Origin: Aliivibrio wodanis
Lineage (GTDB): Bacteria > Pseudomonadota > Gammaproteobacteria > Enterobacterales > Vibrionaceae
Assembly: GCA_000953695.1 (NCBI GenBank)
Contig: LN554847.1
Span: 685,801 to 749,800, forward strand
Direction: 5' to 3'
DNA: 64,000 bases
The translations under genes were made by a program, and so were the position numbers. Under the pieces are notes generated by a model. That model searched no databases. It was not told where the DNA came from and worked only from the letters and a program-made list of their open reading frames with translations. This document shows, one piece after another, positions 4,639-35,735 of this stretch (positions are counted from its first letter, which is position 1; every line of letters begins with the position of its first letter).

Positions 4639-5619
4639 CTATTCATCGTAAAACAAGACAATACTACCACCACGTAATGCACTACCTACGTTAAAGGTGA
4701 AGCCAATACCAACATTATCAATAAGAGATACCCACTTTCTAGTATCGATTAACCATGCAATATTAAACTCATAATAATAATCAGTTCCGAGAGGCTCATT
4801 GACATCACCTCCTAGGTCAACTCGTTTGGCTTTTAGATAAAGAACTTGCGCTAAGCTATTCCAATGAGCCATGTTGTACCTTAGTTGAACACTATTTACA
4901 AAGCGCCAGACTTCAGGATTAACATCAGGACTAACTTTTGACGACCCTCCAAAACCTTGGCCATAAGCATAGTGATAACTATTATTAAAGCGCCACTCTC
5001 CCCAATTGGACTCTTTTTTATACTCAAAAGTGATTTTTGGTTCAATAATAAAAGCATTACTTGATACATTATAATAAACACCATCAAGCCACGGAGCTAG
5101 GCTTTGGCTAAACTCTGAATTGTATTCGTGTGAGTTTTTGTAATGCATTAAATGTAGGGCGTTACCAAATGAAATTGTCCAGTTATCACGAAATATATAG
5201 TTTTGAGCGTATTCTGCATAGAGGCCAAAAATCTCATCTAGATCAGTATCTGGCAATGACATTTCTTTAAATTCGACATCAATGTTTGTATTAACATAAG
5301 ACCCTCGAACTGTGATTTCATGAGACCATAATGAATTAGGATCATTTGTTAATTCAAAAGTATAAGGTAACGAGTAAACGGTTACTTTACTACGAAGTTC
5401 GATAGAATCAGAGCTTCCGATATGTTCATTATTATTATCTAAATAATTATTTGGATTAAAATCAGCAATACCAAAAGTGATCATACTGCTATCTGATAAT
5501 ACGAGTGAGGTAGCAAAGGCTTCTTCGAATTGCTGTGCAGGTGAAAAGTCACGAGCATATGTTTTTCCTATTACAACGTTAAGGCATAACATAATAATAA
5601 GAGTCTTAAATCCACGCAA
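4639..5619 (-). CDS. outer-membrane beta-barrel protein, probable solitary autotransporter-barrel (Omp_AT) type
   Basis: A 326-residue exported protein. A signal peptide (MRGFKTLIIMLCLNVVIGKTYA) is followed by alternating amphipathic strands rich in aromatic residues, typical of an outer-membrane barrel. The general appearance fits the Vibrio family called solitary outer membrane autotransporter beta-barrel domain, which has a barrel without a passenger. That family name is from memory and should be confirmed by a profile search. The protein ends GGSIVLFYDE rather than with the classical terminal phenylalanine. It is a single gene with no partner. Confidence 0.6.
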   Translation of the reverse strand: MRGFKTLIIMLCLNVVIGKTYARDFSPAQQFEEAFATSLVLSDSSMITFGIADFNPNNYLDNNNEHIGSSDSIELRSKVTVYSLPYTFELTNDPNSLWSHEITVRGSYVNTNIDVEFKEMSLPDTDLDEIFGLYAEYAQNYIFRDNWTISFGNALHLMHYKNSHEYNSEFSQSLAPWLDGVYYNVSSNAFIIEPKITFEYKKESNWGEWRFNNSYHYAYGQGFGGSSKVSPDVNPEVWRFVNSVQLRYNMAHWNSLAQVLYLKAKRVDLGGDVNEPLGTDYYYEFNIAWLIDTRKWVSLIDNVGIGFTFNVGSALRGGSIVLFYDE

Positions 5620-5809
5620 TGTATCGAACCTTTTGAGAAAAGAGAAGTATAGTAAAAGTAGCAGACCAATCTATGAAATTAGCCTGCTATTAAGTGATTT
5701 AACTAATAATAATGTAAAATAATTAATAGTATAAGTATTGTATTCGTTCAAATAGACATTTGTTCATATTGTACTTATTTGTCTGAATTATTATGTCTTT
5801 TAAAAGAGA

Positions 5810-7636
5810 TTATTCACTAATAAAACCACCGGTTTGATGGTTCCATAACTGAGCATAAATACCACCTAATTGAACTAGCTCTTTATGTGTTCCTTGCTCA
5901 ACGACCTTACCTTGGTCCATCACCAGTAATCTATCCATTGCTGCTATGGTTGATAGGCGATGTGCAATAGCAATAACGGTTTTTCCTTCCATTAATTCAT
6001 CTAAGCTGTCTTGAATCGCCGCTTCCACTTCTGAGTCGAGCGCGGATGTTGCTTCATCTAAAATTAATAATGGAGCATCTTTAAGTAAAACACGAGATAT
6101 TGCAACTCGTTGGCGTTGCCCGCCAGACAGTTTGACCCCTCGCTCACCAACTTGAGCGTCATAGCCTTTGCTACCGTAAGAATCGGTAAGGCTTTCAATA
6201 AACTCATGTGCTTGAGCTTGTTTAGTTGCAGCGAACAGCTCTTCATCAGTTGCTTCAGGGCGGCCATATTTAATATTATCTCTAATAGAGCGATGAAGTA
6301 GGGAAGTATCTTGGCTTACCATACCAATTTGGCTACGTAGCGAATCTTGTGTTACATCTCTAAGATCATGACCATCAATAGAAATAGCACCCGATTCTAT
6401 ATCATGAAAACGCAGTAATAAATTCACTAATGTTGATTTACCTGCCCCTGAACGACCCACTAAACCAATTTTTTCACCGGGTTTTATCTCAAGATTTAAA
6501 TCATTGATAACACCTTTGTTTTCACCATAATGGAAATTAACGTTATCAAATTTAATCGAACCTTGAGTTACTTTTAATTCTGTTGCTTCAGGTTTATCAT
6601 TAATTGAAATAGGCTTAGAAAGTGTATTAATGCCATCTGTTACCGTCCCTAAGTTTTCAAATAATGAGCTTATCTCCCACATTATCCAGTGTGACATCCC
6701 GTTAATACGTAAAGCCAGGCTTATCGCAATTGCAATCGCACCAACAGATAGGACGTTATCAATCCAAAGCATGATAGAAACGGCAGCAATAGAGAATACT
6801 AATAGGTAGTTTATGATCTCTACTGAAATATTAATCCCAGTTGCTAAACGCATCTGCTTATGAACTGTCCCTAGAAACTCTTCCATGCCTTCTTCTGCAT
6901 ATTCAGTTTCACGAGTACTGTGACTAAATAACTTAACAGTATTGATGTTTGTATAGCTATCTACAATCCTACCTGTCATGGTTGAACGTGCATCAGCTTG
7001 TTTTTCAGAAACGGCTTTTAATTTAGGAACAAAATAAAACTGAATACCAATATAAGCAGCTAGCCAAATTAGCATTGGAGCCATAAGACGCCAATCTGCT
7101 TGACCTACCATTACTACCATTGAAGTAAAGTAAACAGAGATATAGACAAGAACATCAAGTAGCTTCATTACTGTTTCACGAACAGCTAATGAGGTTTGCA
7201 TTACTTTAGTTGCAATACGGCCTGCAAAGTCATCTGAATAAAAAGAGACACTTTGTTTTAATAAGTAACGATGCGCTTGCCAACGGATCGCCATTGGGTA
7301 ATTTCCCAATAAGGTTTGATGGGTAATTAAAGAATGGATAAAAAGTAAAATAGGGACCCCAATAACCACAAGTAAGCCTAACCAAAGTAAGGTTGCTCCT
7401 TCTTGGGCTAAAAACGTGTCACGATCATGGGTTGATAGCCAGTCGACCAGTTGCCCCATAAAACCAAAGAGTGATACTTCAATCACCGCAATGATAGCAC
7501 TCAATAACGACATACTGATAAGCGGAGTCTCAAACCCTTTAGTATAATGGCGACAAAAGGCATAAATCCCTTTTGGGGGTTGCTCTGGTTCTTGTTTTGG
7601 AAAAGCGGTTGTTAGCCGCTCAAAAAAATTAAACAT
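5810..7636 (-). CDS. ABC exporter, fused permease and ATPase (MsbA/MdlB-like)
   Basis: A 608-residue half-transporter that would act as a dimer in the inner membrane. Six hydrophobic segments occupy roughly residues 30-330 and an ATPase domain follows. Walker A is GRSGAGKST near residue 400, the signature LSGGQRQR near 505 and Walker B LLILDEATSALD near 525, all intact. Substrate is unknown; lipid, peptide or drug export are all possible for this class. The gene stands alone with about 150-200 bases on either side. Confidence 0.88.
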   Translation of the reverse strand: MFNFFERLTTAFPKQEPEQPPKGIYAFCRHYTKGFETPLISMSLLSAIIAVIEVSLFGFMGQLVDWLSTHDRDTFLAQEGATLLWLGLLVVIGVPILLFIHSLITHQTLLGNYPMAIRWQAHRYLLKQSVSFYSDDFAGRIATKVMQTSLAVRETVMKLLDVLVYISVYFTSMVVMVGQADWRLMAPMLIWLAAYIGIQFYFVPKLKAVSEKQADARSTMTGRIVDSYTNINTVKLFSHSTRETEYAEEGMEEFLGTVHKQMRLATGINISVEIINYLLVFSIAAVSIMLWIDNVLSVGAIAIAISLALRINGMSHWIMWEISSLFENLGTVTDGINTLSKPISINDKPEATELKVTQGSIKFDNVNFHYGENKGVINDLNLEIKPGEKIGLVGRSGAGKSTLVNLLLRFHDIESGAISIDGHDLRDVTQDSLRSQIGMVSQDTSLLHRSIRDNIKYGRPEATDEELFAATKQAQAHEFIESLTDSYGSKGYDAQVGERGVKLSGGQRQRVAISRVLLKDAPLLILDEATSALDSEVEAAIQDSLDELMEGKTVIAIAHRLSTIAAMDRLLVMDQGKVVEQGTHKELVQLGGIYAQLWNHQTGGFISE

Positions 7637-20781: not shown

Positions 20782-22230
20782 GTGTTGATAAATAGTCGAT
20801 CTTTATGTGTTCTCTTTTTATTCTTCAGTTTATCGTCACACGCGGCTAGTTTAGCTGATAAAATAGACGGTTTTAAAAAGGCATTTAAAAAACAAGATGC
20901 TGTCGAGATTTATGATATACGTTATATACAAAAAGAATACCCAACTGTATTATTATCACCAGATACCTTGTTGCCACAGACCGCTTCTTATCCTTTCAAA
21001 CAATTGCAGCAACTTTATGATACGGCTAAAACTTGTACTGGCCCTTGGCCGGTGAGCCCACTGGTTGGTGAGCCATTAGTTTTAACTCGAGCTATGTGCA
21101 AGGGACTACGCTTACCAACAAGTTGGTTTGCTCGTTCAGGTATGATTCACCCAGGAGGTGGTTCTTATGCTTATCGTTATGTTCAAAAATACCCAAATAG
21201 AGCAGCATCTCTTGAAGCTTATATGCATATAAAAGAGCGTCCCATTGCCCCTAAGGGTGGATTATTACATCATCTTCAAAAGATGGATGATAATGCAATT
21301 CGTGCAATCATTAGTGGCTCTGATACCATAATCGCTGATCAACTATTATGGATAAGAAAAGGCAGTCGATATTATTTATATTCGATGGAGCTAAAGCAAA
21401 GATATCTTGATAAATATGATTTAGAGATCACATCTTTTGAACAAAATGCGAATTGCTATGTCAGAAATGGCAATGTGTGTTGGCAAGAAGAGAGTAATTC
21501 ACGAACATTATTTTATATTGTACTATTTTTAGTCTTTGCTAATTTATCACTCGCTATTGGTTGGGGGATATCTCAGTGGAATAGCAGAAGACGAGAAATG
21601 AAAAGTCGAATGCTAGTACTTCAAATCTTAACTCATGAATTACGTACACCGATTGCCAGTTTAGGGCTAACGGTTGAAGGATTTAGAAGGCAGTTTGAAG
21701 CTCTACCTGAATCCTTATATGATGAATTTAGAAGGCTGTGTGAAGATTCGAGACGATTACGGCAATTAGCTGAAGCAAGTAAGGATTATTTGCAATCAGA
21801 AGATAAAGGGTTTTCCACCGAATGGATCCCTTCAGTAAAAGAATGGTTAGGCTATCGCTGTATGGAATATTCACAGCCAGTTGAGTTTAGAATTAATAAA
21901 GATGCAGCTATAAAAGTAAATATTTATTGGTTAGGCAATTGCATTGATAATTTAATAAATAATGCTCATAAATATGGCATACCACCAGTTATATTGAATG
22001 TAACTATAAAAAACAAACATTTAACAATTGAAGTTATTGATAAAGGACAATTAACAAAGTCGAGTTGGAAAAAGTTAAAAACCCCTTTTGTGAGTGAAGC
22101 AGGTTTGGGTTTAGGCTTGACTATTGTTGAATCAATGATAGATAGAATGGGCGGGACGATGACACTTCAAGGCCCCCCAACGACCTTTATTTTGGAGATA
22201 CCTTGTGAAACAGACAATCCTACTTGTTGA
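20782..22230 (+). CDS. vxrA: sensor histidine kinase VxrA
   Basis: A 482-residue inner-membrane kinase. A signal-anchor is followed by a periplasmic domain of the DUF3404 type (about residues 25-245), one membrane helix (about 250-270) and the kinase core. The phosphorylated histidine lies in LTHELRTP near residue 283, the N box is NCIDNLINNAHKYG near 386 and the G box GLGLGLTIVE. In Vibrio cholerae VxrAB (WigKR) responds to cell-wall damage and controls wall synthesis, type VI secretion and biofilm. The start codon is GTG with AAGGG upstream. The gene overlaps vxrB by 26 bases. Confidence 0.9.
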   Translation: MLINSRSLCVLFLFFSLSSHAASLADKIDGFKKAFKKQDAVEIYDIRYIQKEYPTVLLSPDTLLPQTASYPFKQLQQLYDTAKTCTGPWPVSPLVGEPLVLTRAMCKGLRLPTSWFARSGMIHPGGGSYAYRYVQKYPNRAASLEAYMHIKERPIAPKGGLLHHLQKMDDNAIRAIISGSDTIIADQLLWIRKGSRYYLYSMELKQRYLDKYDLEITSFEQNANCYVRNGNVCWQEESNSRTLFYIVLFLVFANLSLAIGWGISQWNSRRREMKSRMLVLQILTHELRTPIASLGLTVEGFRRQFEALPESLYDEFRRLCEDSRRLRQLAEASKDYLQSEDKGFSTEWIPSVKEWLGYRCMEYSQPVEFRINKDAAIKVNIYWLGNCIDNLINNAHKYGIPPVILNVTIKNKHLTIEVIDKGQLTKSSWKKLKTPFVSEAGLGLGLTIVESMIDRMGGTMTLQGPPTTFILEIPCETDNPTC

Positions 22231-22867
22231 AGACGATAAAAATTTAGCCGACGGCCTTATTGTGAGCTTAGAAGAAGCAGGATACCGCTGCTTACATTCA
22301 GATAATGCTACTAATGTATCTTCTTTCTGGGCCGAGGCGGACATTGTTATCCTGGATCGCCAACTACCAGAAGGTGATTCACTAACTTGGCTACCTCAAT
22401 GGAAGCAGATTAAAGATATTCCTGTTATTTTGCTAACCGCTCTAGTTTCTATCCGAGACAAGGTGACAGGCCTTGATACAGGTGCAAATGATTATTTAAC
22501 TAAACCCTTTGCAGAAGCTGAATTACTTGCACGGTTACGAGCACATTTACGCTCACCAGAAGCCGATGCAAATGATCAGAAAACAACATTAGTCGTAGGA
22601 GGGTTATCAATTGATACCTCGACAAGAGATGTATTTAACTCTGAAGAAAAGGTTATTTTAACCAGAACTGAATTTGATTTATTGTTATTTTTAGCATCAA
22701 ATTTGGGTAAAGTTTTTACTCGTGATGAGTTACTTGATCAGGTATGGGGCTATAATCACTTTCCTACCACGCGCACCGTTGATACTCATATTTTACAGTT
22801 ACGTCAGAAAATAGTGGGTATTGAGATTGAAACCTTACGTGGTGTCGGCTATAAAATGAAAGCGTAA
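22205..22867 (+). CDS. vxrB: response regulator VxrB
   Basis: An OmpR-type DNA-binding regulator of 220 residues. The receiver has the acidic pair EDD near residue 9, the phosphorylation aspartate in VILDRQLP near 51 and the lysine in YLTKPFAE. The winged helix with LTRTEFDLLLFLASN and RTVDTHILQLRQKI fills the carboxyl half. It starts with GTG inside the end of vxrA, so the two are translationally linked. By homology it would be the output of the envelope-stress pathway sensed by VxrA. Confidence 0.92.
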   Translation: MKQTILLVEDDKNLADGLIVSLEEAGYRCLHSDNATNVSSFWAEADIVILDRQLPEGDSLTWLPQWKQIKDIPVILLTALVSIRDKVTGLDTGANDYLTKPFAEAELLARLRAHLRSPEADANDQKTTLVVGGLSIDTSTRDVFNSEEKVILTRTEFDLLLFLASNLGKVFTRDELLDQVWGYNHFPTTRTVDTHILQLRQKIVGIEIETLRGVGYKMKA

Positions 22868-22872
22868 TACTT

Positions 22873-23778
22873 ATGACTTTAAAGCGAAATGTTATCACTT
22901 TTATAGCAACGTGCTGTTTTACTCAAATAGGCGTTGCAGCTTCTGTTGATTGGTTTAATGAACAATCAGCACTATATAGTGCGCATAAAGAATTTCTTGA
23001 GGGTGATGCATTAAAGGGATTTTCGACTTCAATAGAAGTGCTTCAAAGTTCGAGTGATAAAAATATAAATCAGAACGTAGATAAATTATTAAATGCCGCA
23101 ATCTCAACAAATTGTGGGCGAGATTTATCTACTGTAGTGGTGCCAAACTGGTTAAATGCAGTCAGTATTCAGCGAGTTATTGTTCAAAGTCCTGGCCGCT
23201 TGCATCATCGATTTGTTGTTAAATTCGATAGTAAGAAATCAATCAAAAAATTGTCTTTTGTTAAATGGCCTGAAGACGAACAATTTACTAATCCATCGAT
23301 TGGAAGAATACCGACACAAGATGAAAGCATTACACAATATATTTATGCGAGTGAATCACTAAACAATCGTGTTAATAATGGATTATATAAATTAAAGATT
23401 ACTGCAAATGATAAAGATAGAACACAATGGGAGAGTTGGATAATATTAACTAAGCCTAAAATTGAAATGAAAGTTGCTTGGTTAGGCAAAGAGAAATGGA
23501 AAACACATCAAACGGGCTTATTGAGATCAAATTGTCCATTGCCAGAGATGGCTGTTGGTGTTTATGATCATCAAGATAATGATTATATGAAACTTTGGGA
23601 AAAAACATATGAAGAAAAATTCCCTCAAAATTTGCCTGAAACTAATGTACTTCCAGGAAGTTATATATTGAGTGTGTCATTTAATCATAAACGTTTTCAA
23701 GGTCCTATCTCAATTCAAGAAATACAAGCCATTACCAAAGTCATCAATTTTGATGCTGAAGAAGTAGAGAGAAAGTAA
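22873..23778 (+). CDS. vxrC: VxrC-like DUF2861 periplasmic protein
   Basis: A 301-residue exported protein; the signal peptide ends near [10 protein letters not shown]. It is assigned to the DUF2861 family, the third gene of the vxr operon in vibrios. It follows vxrB by five bases and overlaps the next gene by one base. Two cysteines (TNCGRD and SNCPLPE) could form a periplasmic disulfide. Its role is not well defined in the literature; its location suggests it modulates or reports VxrA signalling. Confidence 0.8.
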
Positions 23779-26199: not shown

Positions 26200-26419
26200 T
26201 TAATATTATTAGTGTGTATTTATCTTAACTGATTCTTTTTATCAATAGGGAGCAGATTAAGCATGTTAGAACTATGATTGATATTTAAGCAAGTTACGCT
26301 GTTCATCATTGAGTTAATGTTAGTTAGATCACCTTGTTTACCAATTGTAAAAAAAATAACAGACGGTATAGTGTACTTTAAGTTATACTTCTGTTAGTTA
26401 GGTTAATTGGCACTAAAAT

Positions 26420-28492
26420 ATGAAGCACACACGATTATTCTTTTACATCACATTATTTTTTAGCTCACCGGTAGTTTTAGCATCAATAGATCCAGATCTT
26501 GATGCTCTTATGTCAATGAGTTTAGAAGACTTATCAATGCTAGAAGTTAATGTGACCAGTGCTTCAAAGCGAGAGCAACATATTAGCGATATTCCTGCTG
26601 CTATCTATGTAATTTCTAATGAGCGAATCATTCGTTCTGGTATGAAAACCATTGCAGATATCCTTTCTCTTGCACCAGGCATGGACGTCAGTCAATTTAA
26701 TGAATCGAATGATATTATTTCAGCTCGAGGCTTTCATGATGGCTTATTTAATAAAATGCTAGTAATGATTGATGGACGAAGTGTATTTAATCCTATTTAT
26801 GGTGGGGCATATTGGGAAGATATTGATTATGTCTTAGCTGATATTGAGAGAGTTGAAATTATTAGAGGCCCTAGTGGAACTATATGGGGAGGGAACGCTG
26901 TAAATGGCGTCATTAACATTATTACTAAATCCACAAGTGATACATTAGGTAGTTATGGCCAAATTGCATATGGTCAACATGGATATAAAGAAGTTTCAGT
27001 TCGTCATGGATTGCAGTTTAATGATAGTGTAACAGCAAGAGCATTCTATAAATCAAAAGAGGCTTTTTCTGTGATCGACGAGTATCAAAAGAATTATGAT
27101 ACTGATGAATATAATACAATATCAAATCAAACAGCAGGGGTTAAGTTCCAACTTGAAGAGGGCAATCAATCTTGGACTTTTTCATTTGGTGGTGAGAAAT
27201 CTGAGCAATATTATGATTGGCTTACAATTGATTTAAGTGATCCAGTAAGAACAAGAACCGATTCATTTAAAAATGTAAAAAGCTCTTCATTTTATAGTCA
27301 AGTGACTCATCATGCCGATTATGAAGAATCACAATGGCAAACTAATTTATGGTACTGGCATGATTATGATAACTCTTCTGATGCAAATGGAGAATTCAAC
27401 GCCATTGATTTAGATACAGTGCTTACTGTTGACGTTACACCATCAATAACGGCATTATTTGGTGGTGGTGTTCGATATGTAGATATCCAATTACAAGATG
27501 GAAACGAATATGATCATAGTAATATTGATTATTATAATCGCTTCTCTGAAGACTCTAGTTTATACGATACAGTGAGTAACCTTTATACTCAATTTGATAT
27601 TGAAATAACTGAAAACTTGTCAGCTCAAATAGGAATTAAAGCAGAATATTTTACACTAAATGATTCTTTTGAAGTCTCTCCACAGTTTCGCTCTCTTTAC
27701 CGTATTAATCAAAAGCAAAAATTATGGTTAGGCATTGGTCGTGCGGTTGTTTCTCCTTCTTACTTTGAGCAAAAATCTACCTATTTTTCAGTGTATCTTA
27801 CTGAATATGATGACTATCAATATAATGATGGTTTAAATATTTATTTACCTAATGAAAATCTTAAAAATGAAAATGTCGTTACATTCGATATCGGTTATAG
27901 ATATGAACATTCAAAGGTGAACTTTGATGTAACGGGATATATAAGTAAGTATGAGCATGTTAGAGGAACAGATTATACGGGATATGTAGTTGATAATAAT
28001 GGCTATGAATATCTGTTTTATGAAACAAATGATGATTATGATGCGACAATTTACGGCGGAGAAGTTGCAATAGAGTGGCATATTAATTCAGTTCTTAAAA
28101 ACTATACTAGCTATAGCTATTTTTCATTTTCACAGAAGCGTGTTGAAGGAGATCTAGCCGTACCTGATTCTGATGATTATAGGGAAATTGATCACGAAAA
28201 TATGCTGTCTAGCCAATTATTATGGCAATTAAATGAGCACATTCTGTGGGATTTTATACTAAAATATAAAGATATTGACTATAAAGATAAAGGTGTGGAT
28301 ATAGATAATTTAGTATCATTAGACACAAGAATTGGTTGGAAAAAACATAAGAGTGCACCATTGGTAGAAATTATTGTGACCAATATTGGCATGTCGAATA
28401 AGTGTGAGTTAACAACGTATACTATTGACGGTTCATGCCATGGTTATCAAACCGAGCAATCAATCTATGGTAAAGTGTCTTATGAATTTTAA
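26420..28492 (+). CDS. TonB-dependent outer-membrane receptor
   Basis: A 690-residue receptor with signal peptide ending near PVVLAS, an acidic leader (MSMSLEDLSMLEVNVTSASK) that likely serves as the TonB box region, a plug domain at about residues 45-165 (DIPAAIYVISNERI, RIEIIRGP-like RVEIIRGPSGTIWGG) and a 22-strand-type barrel ending SYEF. It starts a three-gene run with the YfiR-like and GGDEF genes, overlapping the next gene. No Fur-type box was seen upstream, so an iron role is not supported by the sequence. The plug and barrel style resembles receptors paired with signalling proteins. Confidence 0.9.
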   Translation: MKHTRLFFYITLFFSSPVVLASIDPDLDALMSMSLEDLSMLEVNVTSASKREQHISDIPAAIYVISNERIIRSGMKTIADILSLAPGMDVSQFNESNDIISARGFHDGLFNKMLVMIDGRSVFNPIYGGAYWEDIDYVLADIERVEIIRGPSGTIWGGNAVNGVINIITKSTSDTLGSYGQIAYGQHGYKEVSVRHGLQFNDSVTARAFYKSKEAFSVIDEYQKNYDTDEYNTISNQTAGVKFQLEEGNQSWTFSFGGEKSEQYYDWLTIDLSDPVRTRTDSFKNVKSSSFYSQVTHHADYEESQWQTNLWYWHDYDNSSDANGEFNAIDLDTVLTVDVTPSITALFGGGVRYVDIQLQDGNEYDHSNIDYYNRFSEDSSLYDTVSNLYTQFDIEITENLSAQIGIKAEYFTLNDSFEVSPQFRSLYRINQKQKLWLGIGRAVVSPSYFEQKSTYFSVYLTEYDDYQYNDGLNIYLPNENLKNENVVTFDIGYRYEHSKVNFDVTGYISKYEHVRGTDYTGYVVDNNGYEYLFYETNDDYDATIYGGEVAIEWHINSVLKNYTSYSYFSFSQKRVEGDLAVPDSDDYREIDHENMLSSQLLWQLNEHILWDFILKYKDIDYKDKGVDIDNLVSLDTRIGWKKHKSAPLVEIIVTNIGMSNKCELTTYTIDGSCHGYQTEQSIYGKVSYEF

Positions 28493-29003
28493 TTGGCTAA
28501 AGTCATTCTTTGTTGCTTATCTTTGCTTTTTTTCTAGTAGTTTTGCAGTTGAAGCTGCTTATCAACGACATCAGTTAGAAGCTGTCTATATTTTTAGAAT
28601 CGCTAACTTTATACAGTGGGGAGAAGAGAAACGCTCAGAACTCACTTTCTGTGGAGATAAACAAGATCCTGTCGTACAAACATTGATTGTCATTAGTAAG
28701 AATAAAAAAATTCAAGGACAAAATGTTAGTGTAAAAGCTCAAGAGAAATCTATATTAAATTCTGAGTGTAATATATATATAGCAAATGAAAATACACCTT
28801 CTTTTTTCTTAAAAAAACTGAATAAAAATACGCTTACAATTAGTAGTAACCCTAACTTTACAAAAGAGCTTGGAATGATTGAGTTAAGGCTGGTAAAAGG
28901 TAAAGTGAAACCAGCTATTAATTTAGATAATTTAGAAAATGCCACGTTCAGGATTAGCTCTCAATTGCTCCGTTTATCGATCATTGAAGGAAATAATCAC
29001 TAA
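28482..29003 (+). CDS. YfiR-family periplasmic protein (DUF4154)
   Basis: A 173-residue exported protein; signal peptide MNFNWLKSFFVAYLCFFSSSFA, then YQRHQLEAVYIFRIANFIQWGEE, the classical opening of the YfiR domain. The fold is a periplasmic regulator that in Pseudomonas YfiBNR represses a diguanylate cyclase. The ATG at 28482 lies inside the end of the receptor gene (11-base overlap), and the stop overlaps the start of the GGDEF gene (TAATG). Two cysteines (LTFCGD and NSECNIY) match the redox-sensitive disulfide region of YfiR. Confidence 0.87.
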   Translation: MNFNWLKSFFVAYLCFFSSSFAVEAAYQRHQLEAVYIFRIANFIQWGEEKRSELTFCGDKQDPVVQTLIVISKNKKIQGQNVSVKAQEKSILNSECNIYIANENTPSFFLKKLNKNTLTISSNPNFTKELGMIELRLVKGKVKPAINLDNLENATFRISSQLLRLSIIEGNNH

Positions 29004-30967
29004 TGAAATGGATAGAAAGAGCTTCTTTACGTCAGCGATTATCAATACCAATCATTGTGTTTACGATGGTGTTATTTATTCTATTTCAAGGTTACAACTA
29101 TATTAGTACCTATCAAATTCAGAAAGATAATCTTATTAATCGAATCAAAGTACTAACAAACGGTGTGAGTGTAAACCTGCAAGCAGCATTGCTATTTGAT
29201 GATGAAATAACCGCACAAGAAGTTCTTAGTGCATTTAGTGTTGATGCTGAGATTTTGCAAGCTCGATTACTAAAAAGTGATGGTTCAGTGTTTGCAGAAT
29301 ACCACCGAAACGGGATAATAATGAAAGCCCCAAGTCTTGTTTTACAAGAGGAAGTTGTCATTAATGGTTTTGCTATTGGTGATACCGCGATCTATATTTT
29401 GATCCCTGTAACATTAAATAATGAACAAATTGCTAAAATACGATTAATTGTATCAAAACAAGAATTAACACAAATGAGGAATAAAACCTTACAGATATCT
29501 TTTTTCATGTTTGGATTAATTATTGTTTGCGGTTATCTATTTATCTTAAAAATTCATCAATGGATTATTACGCCAGTTTCAAAGTTGAACCAAGCAATGC
29601 AAGGTATTATAACCAAAGGTGAATTTAATGTTAGACCTTCGGTTATAACGCACGATGAGTTGGGTGATCTTACTTTATCATTTAATAAAATGGCAGATAA
29701 ACTTGAAGAGCGACAAAAACAGTTAAATATTGTTTTGGGGAAAGTTGAGCAAGAAAGAGATTTTGGTGAGCAAATCATTACTGCCGTTCAACATGGTTTA
29801 TTTGCAGTAAACAATCAAGGTAAGATACTTCTCTCTAATGATGCGTCAAAAAAATTATTTCCTCAAACACTAAACCTTCCACTTAAAGATTCTTTGCTTT
29901 CTGACATCATAAAGCCTCTAGAAGAAAATATGCTGTCTATGTTAGTTGAAACCAGTACTGAAGTTGATGACTTATTAATTCATACTAAAGATGGTGTTGC
30001 ATTGCAGATCACGACTCGGAGTCTATCTAACAAAGAACAGTTGTTATTATCTGTGGTGGATGTGACAGAAGCAATAAAGAGCCGAACTCAACAAAAATTA
30101 GCAGCGAATGTATTTAAAAATAGCCAGGATGGTGTGCTGATTTTTGATGCAGATGGCAGCTTAACATTAATGAATCCTGCATTTACGGCTATTTTTGGTT
30201 ATGAATTAGAGGAATTAATGAAGTTATCGATGAAAGAGTTGTTTGATGGGCATCATTTTAGTACATCAACAGATCTCATTACAGAATCTATATATCGATT
30301 CGGCCAGTGGCATGGCGAAGTATTAGAAAAAAATAAACTTGGTGAAGAGCTGCCACTTTATGTTAAAGCAAGCAAGATAATTGATGATGAACAAACAGGT
30401 CAAGATAGCTATATTTTCATTTTTACGAACTTATTTGATGTTAAAGAAAAAGAGCGCTTAGACTATCTAGCTCACCATGATTCATTAACAGGCTTACCAA
30501 ATAGGTCAAAATTTTATCAAATAGTAAATAAAACCCTTGCTGTGAATAAAGATTTCTTTGGACAAATAGGGCTATGTTATTTAGATCTTGATGGCTTTAA
30601 AGCTATTAATGATAATTATGGTCATGATGCTGGTGATGAAGTACTGAAAGTAGTAGCTAAACGTTTGGAACATGCCGTGAGACAAGAAGATTTAGCTTGT
30701 CGATTAGCCGGAGATGAATTTGTACTTTTTATCAACGCAGTACAAAGTATAGAGCAATTAACGATGCTATCTACACGAGTAATAGAGGTGATTCAAAAAC
30801 CAATCTCGTATCAGAATGAGCGGCTATCAGTAGGCATTAGTATAGGTATTACTGTTGCACAATATAGTGATGAAAAAGACATCGATGTTTTATTGAAAGA
30901 GGCTGATAATGCAATGTATCAAGCAAAACTTTCAGGTAAAGGACAGTTCAAATTTCACAAAGTATGA
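29003..30967 (+). CDS. membrane diguanylate cyclase (sensor, HAMP, PAS, GGDEF)
   Basis: A 654-residue inner-membrane enzyme predicted to make c-di-GMP. Membrane helices lie at about residues 15-35 and 165-188, enclosing a periplasmic CHASE8-like sensor as in YfiN. A HAMP domain follows, then a PAS region (about 365-480) and the GGDEF domain. The active-site signature is AGDEF near residue 568, a variant known from active cyclases, and RQED five residues before it forms an inhibitory I-site. It starts in the stop of the YfiR-like gene, so it is co-translated with its likely periplasmic inhibitor. Confidence 0.9.
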   Translation: MKWIERASLRQRLSIPIIVFTMVLFILFQGYNYISTYQIQKDNLINRIKVLTNGVSVNLQAALLFDDEITAQEVLSAFSVDAEILQARLLKSDGSVFAEYHRNGIIMKAPSLVLQEEVVINGFAIGDTAIYILIPVTLNNEQIAKIRLIVSKQELTQMRNKTLQISFFMFGLIIVCGYLFILKIHQWIITPVSKLNQAMQGIITKGEFNVRPSVITHDELGDLTLSFNKMADKLEERQKQLNIVLGKVEQERDFGEQIITAVQHGLFAVNNQGKILLSNDASKKLFPQTLNLPLKDSLLSDIIKPLEENMLSMLVETSTEVDDLLIHTKDGVALQITTRSLSNKEQLLLSVVDVTEAIKSRTQQKLAANVFKNSQDGVLIFDADGSLTLMNPAFTAIFGYELEELMKLSMKELFDGHHFSTSTDLITESIYRFGQWHGEVLEKNKLGEELPLYVKASKIIDDEQTGQDSYIFIFTNLFDVKEKERLDYLAHHDSLTGLPNRSKFYQIVNKTLAVNKDFFGQIGLCYLDLDGFKAINDNYGHDAGDEVLKVVAKRLEHAVRQEDLACRLAGDEFVLFINAVQSIEQLTMLSTRVIEVIQKPISYQNERLSVGISIGITVAQYSDEKDIDVLLKEADNAMYQAKLSGKGQFKFHKV

Positions 30968-34693: not shown

Positions 34694-34726
34694 AATTGGT
34701 GCACATTCCCGTGCACCAATTATTTC
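34694..34726 (+). terminator. terminator between SPOR lipoprotein and ddl
   Basis: AATTGGTGCAC and GTGCACCAATT with loop ATTCCC; T/A-rich after it. Eleven-bp perfect stem. Confidence 0.85.
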
Positions 34727-34740
34727 CTATAGTGATTAGC

Positions 34741-35735
34741 ATGACTCATATCCTTTTACTTTGTGGCGGTGGCGGTACCGAACATGAAGTTTCATTAGTA
34801 TCATCAAAATATATTTATCAGCAATTGTCTGAACTAAATACATTTAAAATAACTCACCTAGAAATTAAAGATAATGGCTGGTTTCAAATTGATTCAGACC
34901 TAAAATATGAATTACGTTCTGATAAATCATTAGTTTGCGATAATGTTGAATGCGGCCGTATAGATTATGTTATTCCTTGCATTCATGGATATCCAGGTGA
35001 GACAGGTGACATTCAATCTATGTTGGATATGCTTCACCTTCCTTATTTAGGCTGTGGTGCTGAATCAAGTACAAACAGCTTTAATAAAATCACTTCAAAA
35101 TTGTGGTATGACGCGCTTGATATTCCCAATACCCCTTATCTATTCTTGACAGAAAATAATGAAGATACACATGCTTCAGCATTATCAGCGTTTAAAGAAT
35201 GGGGTGGATTATTTGTTAAAGCGGCTTGCCAAGGCTCATCCATTGGGTGTTACAATGTAACTTCTGAGGATGAGTTAGAGAAAGCGATTAATGATGCTTT
35301 CGGGTTTTCTCAACAAGTACTTATTGAAAAAACAGTGAAGCCAAGAGAGTTGGAAGTTGCAGCCTATGAAATTGACGGCAAGCTATTTACAACCCCTCCA
35401 GGAGAAGTTATTGCTCCTGATGGTGTTTTTATACTTATGATGAAAAATACGGTAGTGGTAGCCATTCAACAACCACATTAACGGCAAGCAATTTATCTGA
35501 TAAACAAATTAATTTGATCGATAAATACAGCCAAAAAGTATTTAAACAAATGAAATTAAAAGATTTATCTCGCATCGATTTTTTCTTAACAGAAGAGAAC
35601 AAAATTTATTTAAACGAGGTAAATACTTTCCCTGGAATGACACCAATCTCAATGTTCCCTAAGCTATTAGAGCATAATGGCGATTGTTTTAAAACATTCC
35701 TAGAGAAAGCAATTCTTAACGCTCTCAAATCATAA
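34741..35735 (+). pseudogene. ddl: D-alanine--D-alanine ligase, split by a one-base deletion
   Basis: The first part (MTHILLLCGGGGTEHEVS onward, to about residue 229) and the second part (from ASNLSDKQINLIDK to NALKS) are both clearly Ddl, the ATP-grasp ligase joining two D-alanines for peptidoglycan. The frames join cleanly if one T is restored in the run of five T at 35426-35430, giving FYTYDEKYGSGSHSTTT and a 331-residue protein. The carboxyl signature NEVNTFPGMTPIS is intact. As written, the first frame ends at 35481 and the product would lack the active-site end. This is a real frameshift or a homopolymer error; another ddl copy elsewhere would make loss tolerable. Confidence 0.85.

Follow-up and report, generated by a model that had tools for sequence, protein, structure and literature searches.

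The window analysed here, a stretch of 64,000 nucleotides of Aliivibrio wodanis DNA (contig LN554847.1, positions 685,801 to 749,800), contains three overlapping genes on the forward strand, encoding a TonB-dependent receptor (TBDR; positions 26420–28492, 690 amino acids), a YfiR-like periplasmic protein (28482–29003, 173 amino acids) and a membrane diguanylate cyclase (29003–30967, 654 amino acids). The ATG of yfiR at 28482 gives an overlap of 11 bp with the TBDR gene (ATGAATTTTAA), and at the TAATG junction that follows, the TAA of yfiR ends on 29003, the base with which the cyclase ATG begins, an overlap of 1 bp. Reading-frame positions and Pfam assignments bore out the three overlapped genes, with overlaps of 11 and 1 bases, described in an earlier reading of this DNA (the original prediction). 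No OmpA/Pal-like lipoprotein of the YfiB type was found among the open reading frames of at least 80 amino acids around the operon; the TBDR is present instead. Because YfiB is absent the system was not filed as YfiBNR, and the operon is a TBDR-coupled variant of the YfiR–CHASE8 core.

The YfiR-like protein has a signal peptide and matched PF13689 (DUF4154/YfiR) at 6e-25 and the profile of the YfiR in the Protein Data Bank (PDB) at 3e-13. Its predicted structure (pLDDT 89) gave Pseudomonas aeruginosa YfiR as PDB matches 1–15 in Foldseek, with periplasmic substrate-binding proteins at ranks 16–19. The cyclase is composed of a first membrane helix, a periplasmic CHASE8 domain (PF17152, 8e-13; residues 45–148, positions 29135–29446), a second membrane helix, HAMP and PAS regions, and a GGDEF domain (PF00990, 3e-43; 30470–30943). 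The GGDEF domain carries an AGDEF active-site motif (30707–30721), the sequence DLDGFKAINDNYGH and an RxxD-type I-site (RQED), the motifs by which an active diguanylate cyclase is predicted.

In the TBDR, Pfam matches to plug (2e-21) and barrel (3e-15) and a predicted model (m562ee3b8fd07; mean pLDDT 85) indicated a signal peptide, a plug and a 22-strand-type barrel, with Cir and BtuB as the closest PDB folds. Residues 42–48, EVNVTSA (26543–26563), resemble the TonB box of BtuB in both position and pattern and mark the point at which the BtuB profile match starts (V45 is kept in 28/40). Pfam gave no match to an STN domain in this receptor, and only about 20 residues lie between the signal peptide and the TonB box. 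These include LMSMSLEDL (residues 30–38, 26507–26533), which fits a motif, L30..M33-S34-L35-E36-x-L38, whose L38 was found in 40/40, L35 in 39/40 and L30 in 36/40 of the receptors from cassettes of this type.

The host Aliivibrio genome contains two YfiR genes and ten TBDR plug genes, and both YfiR genes sit 3' of a TBDR gene and 5' of a GGDEF gene, which is more than expected by chance. The second cassette (G000:C2, about 183.1–187.9 kb) is 29% identical to that of the window in the TBDR and the cyclase and about 26% in YfiR, and is best described as an old paralogue of it; its TonB-box-like sequence is ETKVVTA. The L..MSLE.L motif precedes the TonB box in both cassette TBDRs of this host (2/2) and in none of its other TBDRs (0/8), the one regular-expression match among the latter lying inside the signal peptide.

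Conservation and natural loss of the three genes

Gene contexts were compared in genomes taken one per species, using open-reading-frame calls and profile models built for the analysis; the states of two loci are less certain, L020 being a metagenome contig with a coverage near 6 and L255 ending at a contig edge. In the Vibrionaceae, YfiR was present in 88/197 genomes (102 genes listed), and a CHASE8 gene lay within 1.5 kb of the YfiR gene in 102/102 cases, mostly in the order TBDR–YfiR–GGDEF. Among 83 of the YfiR genes examined, 73 were immediately preceded by a TBDR reading frame in the same orientation (a shortened one at L184 and L123) and nearly all had a GGDEF gene directly downstream, with recurring overlaps of 11 or 16 bp between the TBDR gene and yfiR and of 1 or 4 bp between yfiR and the cyclase gene. 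A wider sample of Gammaproteobacteria contained YfiR in 44/276 genomes, with a TBDR no more than 400 bp from 43/71 YfiR genes (in 40 cases sharing the strand); 53/71 had a kinase or GGDEF protein at most that far away. The top 30 loci from a sample of Pseudomonadota consisted mostly of TBDR, YfiR and CHASE8-kinase, and this list also holds Pseudomonas-type YfiR loci without an upstream TBDR, as expected of a positive control.

In the Pseudomonadota outside the Vibrionaceae the third gene mostly encodes a CHASE8 histidine kinase or a GGDEF-EAL protein. The input half of these proteins was similar whatever the output domain: in 47/48 downstream partners, be they kinase, GGDEF or GGDEF-EAL proteins, a pair of membrane helices flanks a periplasmic domain of about 125–140 residues, CHASE8 and HAMP were scored in 46/48 of the partners scanned, including those of the window and the paralogue, and 48/48 matched the NCBIfam models YfiN and HK_near_YfiR over the N-terminal part of the model. 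Whether the gene order is conserved was a question raised by the original prediction; it is kept across the Vibrionaceae and, with a kinase or GGDEF-EAL output, across the Pseudomonadota, and by this comparison the TBDR–YfiR–CHASE8 trio is a conserved unit.

Several variants of the arrangement were seen. The TBDR gene is 3' rather than 5' of YfiR at L087, L091, L065, L074, L108, L110 and L115, and some of the loci with this order have no kinase or GGDEF gene directly beside YfiR. Locus L181 (G398:C1:168316-173135) has a tandem TBDR duplicate in one cassette (737 and 714 amino acids), perhaps serving two ligands with one YfiR. At L122 a signal peptide, YfiR, a coiled coil, a membrane helix and a kinase share one frame, with YfiR as the extracytoplasmic part of the kinase, and for this reason it was kept as a real fusion. 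The long 'YfiR' frames of the high-GC loci L271 and L284 were rejected as fusions, as they look like upstream extension of the frame. Matches to YfiR within open frames of 601–881 amino acids (for example in G716, G714, G736, G722 and G559) are possibly further fusions like that of L122.

Losses of one or two of the genes were repeated. In the Vibrionaceae 22 CHASE8 genes had no YfiR neighbour, among them orphan cyclases located at the corresponding syntenic position. In two Aliivibrio genomes (G004 and G002) the match to the window breaks off after 26103 and picks up again with the cyclase gene at its first base, 29003, and thus both the TBDR gene and yfiR are missing. Loss of the TBDR alone was clean at L159, L167, L170 and L177 and left a decayed remnant at L193 and L197, and no TBDR was detectable beside the YfiR–cyclase pair at L218 and L221. 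On a cyclase tree (100 rows, quick search) the orphan state needs at least eight changes and the TBDR-less state at least four. These genomes contain 90 cassette-type TBDRs (G440 being entered through its locus, L157). YfiR lies next to 88 of them; the two exceptions are a tandem copy within a cassette and a gene broken by a stop codon, the latter in a genome that has no YfiR. No intact receptor of this type persisted without YfiR among the 90. The losses are therefore nested, either of the TBDR alone or of the TBDR together with YfiR, indicating that the TBDR depends on YfiR and YfiR on the cyclase.

At four further loci (L020, L178, L184 and L152) the TBDR gene has an internal in-frame deletion that leaves the signal peptide, the N-terminal motif region, at least the last 15 residues and the overlap with yfiR. 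The resulting short reading frames, of about 68–220 codons (L020, 1015–1428; L178, about 6437–6673; L184, about 5177–5880; L152, 1191–1397), still end in the 11-bp overlap, which suggests selection for coupled translation of yfiR. The idea that these 'mini-TBDRs' act as a conserved peptide regulator was rejected: the reading frame is preserved in four genomes, yet one of these (G361, L152) shows decay of the motif, and translational coupling alone explains them.

Evidence for contact between YfiR and the cyclase

In P. aeruginosa YfiN the patch that binds YfiR was mapped experimentally by Malone et al. to a hydrophobic AAVVF sequence in the periplasmic domain, and in their survey of divergent Yfi systems the YfiR-binding residues were reported to be lost where yfiR is absent (PMC3375315). 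The counterpart in the window cyclase is AALLF (residues 61–65, positions 29183–29197). Its F65 was present in 48/48 of the class-wide partners, in 73/73 cyclases accompanied by both TBDR and YfiR, and in 9/9 accompanied by YfiR without a TBDR. In the Vibrionaceae F65 was kept in 82/82 cyclases with YfiR compared to 3/18 orphans, the others having L, S, T, A, E, H or Y (Fisher p = 3e-15, a value that ignores relatedness). Across eight independent pairs, loss of F65 was concordant with loss of YfiR in six, showed no difference in two and was discordant in none (sign test p = 0.031), and loss of the TBDR alone coincided with loss of F65 in 0/4.

In contrasts in which YfiR was lost the CHASE8 score dropped in 6/6, whereas the GGDEF score did not fall consistently. 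On orphan branches, with rates taken relative to GGDEF, CHASE8 evolved 2.4-fold faster (permutation p 0.0013) and HAMP 2.45-fold faster (p <0.0001); this permutation treats branches as exchangeable and covers orphan versus full rows only. When the TBDR-less branches were pooled with the full ones the result for CHASE8 was not significant (p 0.084), owing to one long stem (L218/L221).

As far as sequence comparison can tell, YfiR and CHASE8 are co-constrained at a known contact site, and a YfiR–CHASE8 contact in the TBDR-coupled family is well supported. Restraint of the cyclase by YfiR, which the original prediction had carried over from Pseudomonas, gains strong support from the loss of F65 and of CHASE8 constraint where YfiR has been lost. 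By analogy with P. aeruginosa, YfiR would repress the cyclase and its removal would activate it.

Proposed role of the receptor

We consider it reasonably probable that the operon encodes an envelope-spanning relay on a YfiR–YfiN core, in which the TBDR is the outer-membrane input that releases YfiR. Periplasmic YfiR would hold the cyclase off through the AALLF patch of CHASE8. Binding of a ligand by the TBDR, or its engagement by TonB, would rearrange the plug and expose the periplasmic N-terminus with LMSMSLEDL, and this proposed capture peptide would draw YfiR away, leaving the cyclase free to make c-di-GMP. Such release of YfiR in response to ligand or TonB is suggested by analogy only, the model being the hydrophobic N-terminal peptide of YfiB, which is tethered to the outer membrane and whose residues F48, W55 and F57 enter pockets of YfiR (PMC4887326). 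By alignment, the pocket for YfiB F57 is hydrophobic in the window YfiR at four of five residues (L148, L151, I158 and L163), with S160 in place of Pro. The YfiR–kinase fusion at L122 also counts in favour of the relay. The same input module would drive kinases or GGDEF-EAL proteins in other Pseudomonadota. A more tentative proposal is that TBDRs throughout the Pseudomonadota may be outer-membrane sensors of a general YfiR–CHASE8 switch. In it, L..MSLE.L, once exposed by ligand or TonB state, would capture YfiR and thereby release an inner-membrane cyclase, phosphodiesterase or kinase, a route needing neither an STN domain nor an anti-sigma factor. The original prediction had put the receptor in the place of YfiB; the association, the nested loss and the cassette-specific N-terminal motif argue for this, and the TBDR–YfiR contact and the direction of signalling are predicted.

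Four observations weigh against such a relay. The TBDR was lost at least four times with YfiR and the cyclase persisting, and therefore these two can function in its absence. With its ordinary transporter fold and its TonB box, the receptor may do no more than import a substrate. The motif before the TonB box is decaying in the shortened receptor described above. Finally, the window YfiR has two cysteines in the whole protein and lacks the Cys145–Cys152 pair on which P. aeruginosa YfiR depends for its folding (PMC4655355, on the roles of the cysteine pairs).

The main rival fits nearly as well as a TBDR–YfiR contact. It holds that the TBDR imports a substrate to the periplasm and that YfiR binds this substrate and lets go of the cyclase, so that the two proteins need not touch. 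The YfiR fold corresponds to one half of a periplasmic binding protein, consistent with the substrate-binding proteins that were the next-best PDB matches of the YfiR model, and P. aeruginosa YfiR binds vitamin B6 and L-Trp, weakly, in the pocket used by YfiB (PMC4887326); the TonB box and intact transporter fold close to Cir and BtuB also suit an importer. However, import leaves the cassette-specific motif before the TonB box unexplained, and no inner-membrane transporter or catabolic gene was found in the cassette at the loci examined. We regard this explanation as possible, though on the unlikely side. The fold search gave no hint of a ligand for the TBDR beyond generic Cir, BtuB and siderophore-receptor neighbours.

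Alternatively, the TBDR might share only a transcript and translational coupling with yfiR and the cyclase gene while having an independent role in uptake. The places where it was lost while YfiR and the cyclase stayed would fit this, as would the four shortened TBDR genes (G013, G432, G379 and G361) that remain in frame through the stop overlapping yfiR. Against it, TBDR and YfiR are associated throughout the Pseudomonadota, whichever gene comes first and with more than one kind of output, no cassette-type TBDR stays intact where YfiR is missing, and the paralogous cassettes retain the same trio at 29% identity. We regard coupling alone as improbable. A redox relay, in which YfiR responds through its Cys57–Cys96 pair (aligned with Cys71–Cys110 of P. 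aeruginosa YfiR and nearly invariant in a 15-member alignment) like HmsC, a redox-responsive YfiR relative (PMC5550408, PMC8846402), with the TBDR secondary, leaves the TBDR association unexplained and is very improbable as a replacement for the TBDR-driven relay, beside which it may nevertheless act.

Flanking sequence, related systems and significance

Upstream of the operon an imperfect inverted repeat, GTATAGTGTACTTTAAGTTATAC (26366–26388, forward strand), is kept in four Aliivibrio orthologues and is a possible operator or promoter element. Two blocks within 26334–26388, TCACCTTGTT and GTATA...TTATA, are common to the Aliivibrio orthologues and are possible regulator and promoter sites. 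No Fur box was found in the window at up to three mismatches, and the neighbouring genes (moaB, a TraF/OmpP1-like gene and an acetyl-CoA-synthetase-like gene) gave no ligand for the TBDR. Viral contigs scanned for YfiR had no match. Elsewhere in the window, a DUF3404 sensor kinase, a response regulator and a DUF2861 gene lie in a row at 20782–23778, an arrangement that we take to resemble vxrABC of Vibrio cholerae. A D-Ala-D-Ala-ligase-like frame (34696–35725, 261 amino acids) is apparently frameshifted near 35430, its C-terminal part running on in another frame to about 35735, which would reflect either a genuine frameshift or a sequencing error.

The periplasmic repressor with a YfiR fold is common to the window, YfiBNR (TpbB) of P. 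aeruginosa, DgcN–YfiR of Escherichia coli and HmsCDE of Yersinia. Systems of the YfiBNR type also resemble the window operon in having a CHASE8–HAMP–GGDEF cyclase with an AAVVF-type motif and a tripartite operon with an outer-membrane third partner, and the Cys71–Cys110 pair of P. aeruginosa YfiR has its counterpart in the window protein. They differ in that the outer-membrane partner of the window is a TBDR and not the OmpA/Pal-like lipoprotein YfiB, that its cyclase has an added PAS region and that its YfiR is without the Cys145–Cys152 pair. The NCBIfam models TOL_0244 (TBDR), TOL_0243 (YfiR-like) and HK_near_YfiR_like describe the same trio, with a membrane sensor that has the N-terminal input module in common with the window cyclase, and are matched by the three window proteins, below the curated cut-offs (308 versus 645, 57 versus 125 and 96 versus 194 bits); there the output is a histidine kinase rather than GGDEF. 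FecA/FpvA-type transducers are similar in that a TBDR would report on its ligand, but the window TBDR lacks their STN signalling domain and has no adjacent sigma or anti-sigma gene.

Malone et al. described in 2012 distant yfiN–yfiR operons without yfiB, with GGDEF-EAL, HPT or kinase outputs, and the text on these divergent Yfi systems does not mention TonB receptors (PMC3375315). A literature search found no paper joining YfiR and TBDRs, an absence that is weak evidence as subscription journals were outside its scope. The path that the original prediction called uncharacterised is so, in the literature searched, with regard to the TBDR; the modular YfiR–YfiN outputs had been published and models of the trio exist. 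Within these bounds, the comparison of hundreds of genomes shows a widespread form of the YfiBNR switch, so far undescribed, with a TBDR in the position of YfiB.

The YfiBNR switch, studied for its part in biofilm formation and persistence, responds to a signal that is still under debate. Outside Pseudomonas and the enterobacteria most YfiR genes are without YfiB; for the majority of these the present analysis supplies a partner in the outer membrane that has a ligand pocket, so that the long-standing question of what YfiR systems sense becomes testable through the ligand of the TBDR. The repeated natural losses, of the TBDR only or of the TBDR with YfiR, are ready comparative controls. If the TBDR-driven relay is correct, TBDRs would have a second means, alongside FecA-type transduction, of reporting compounds from outside the cell, and this one would act directly on c-di-GMP.

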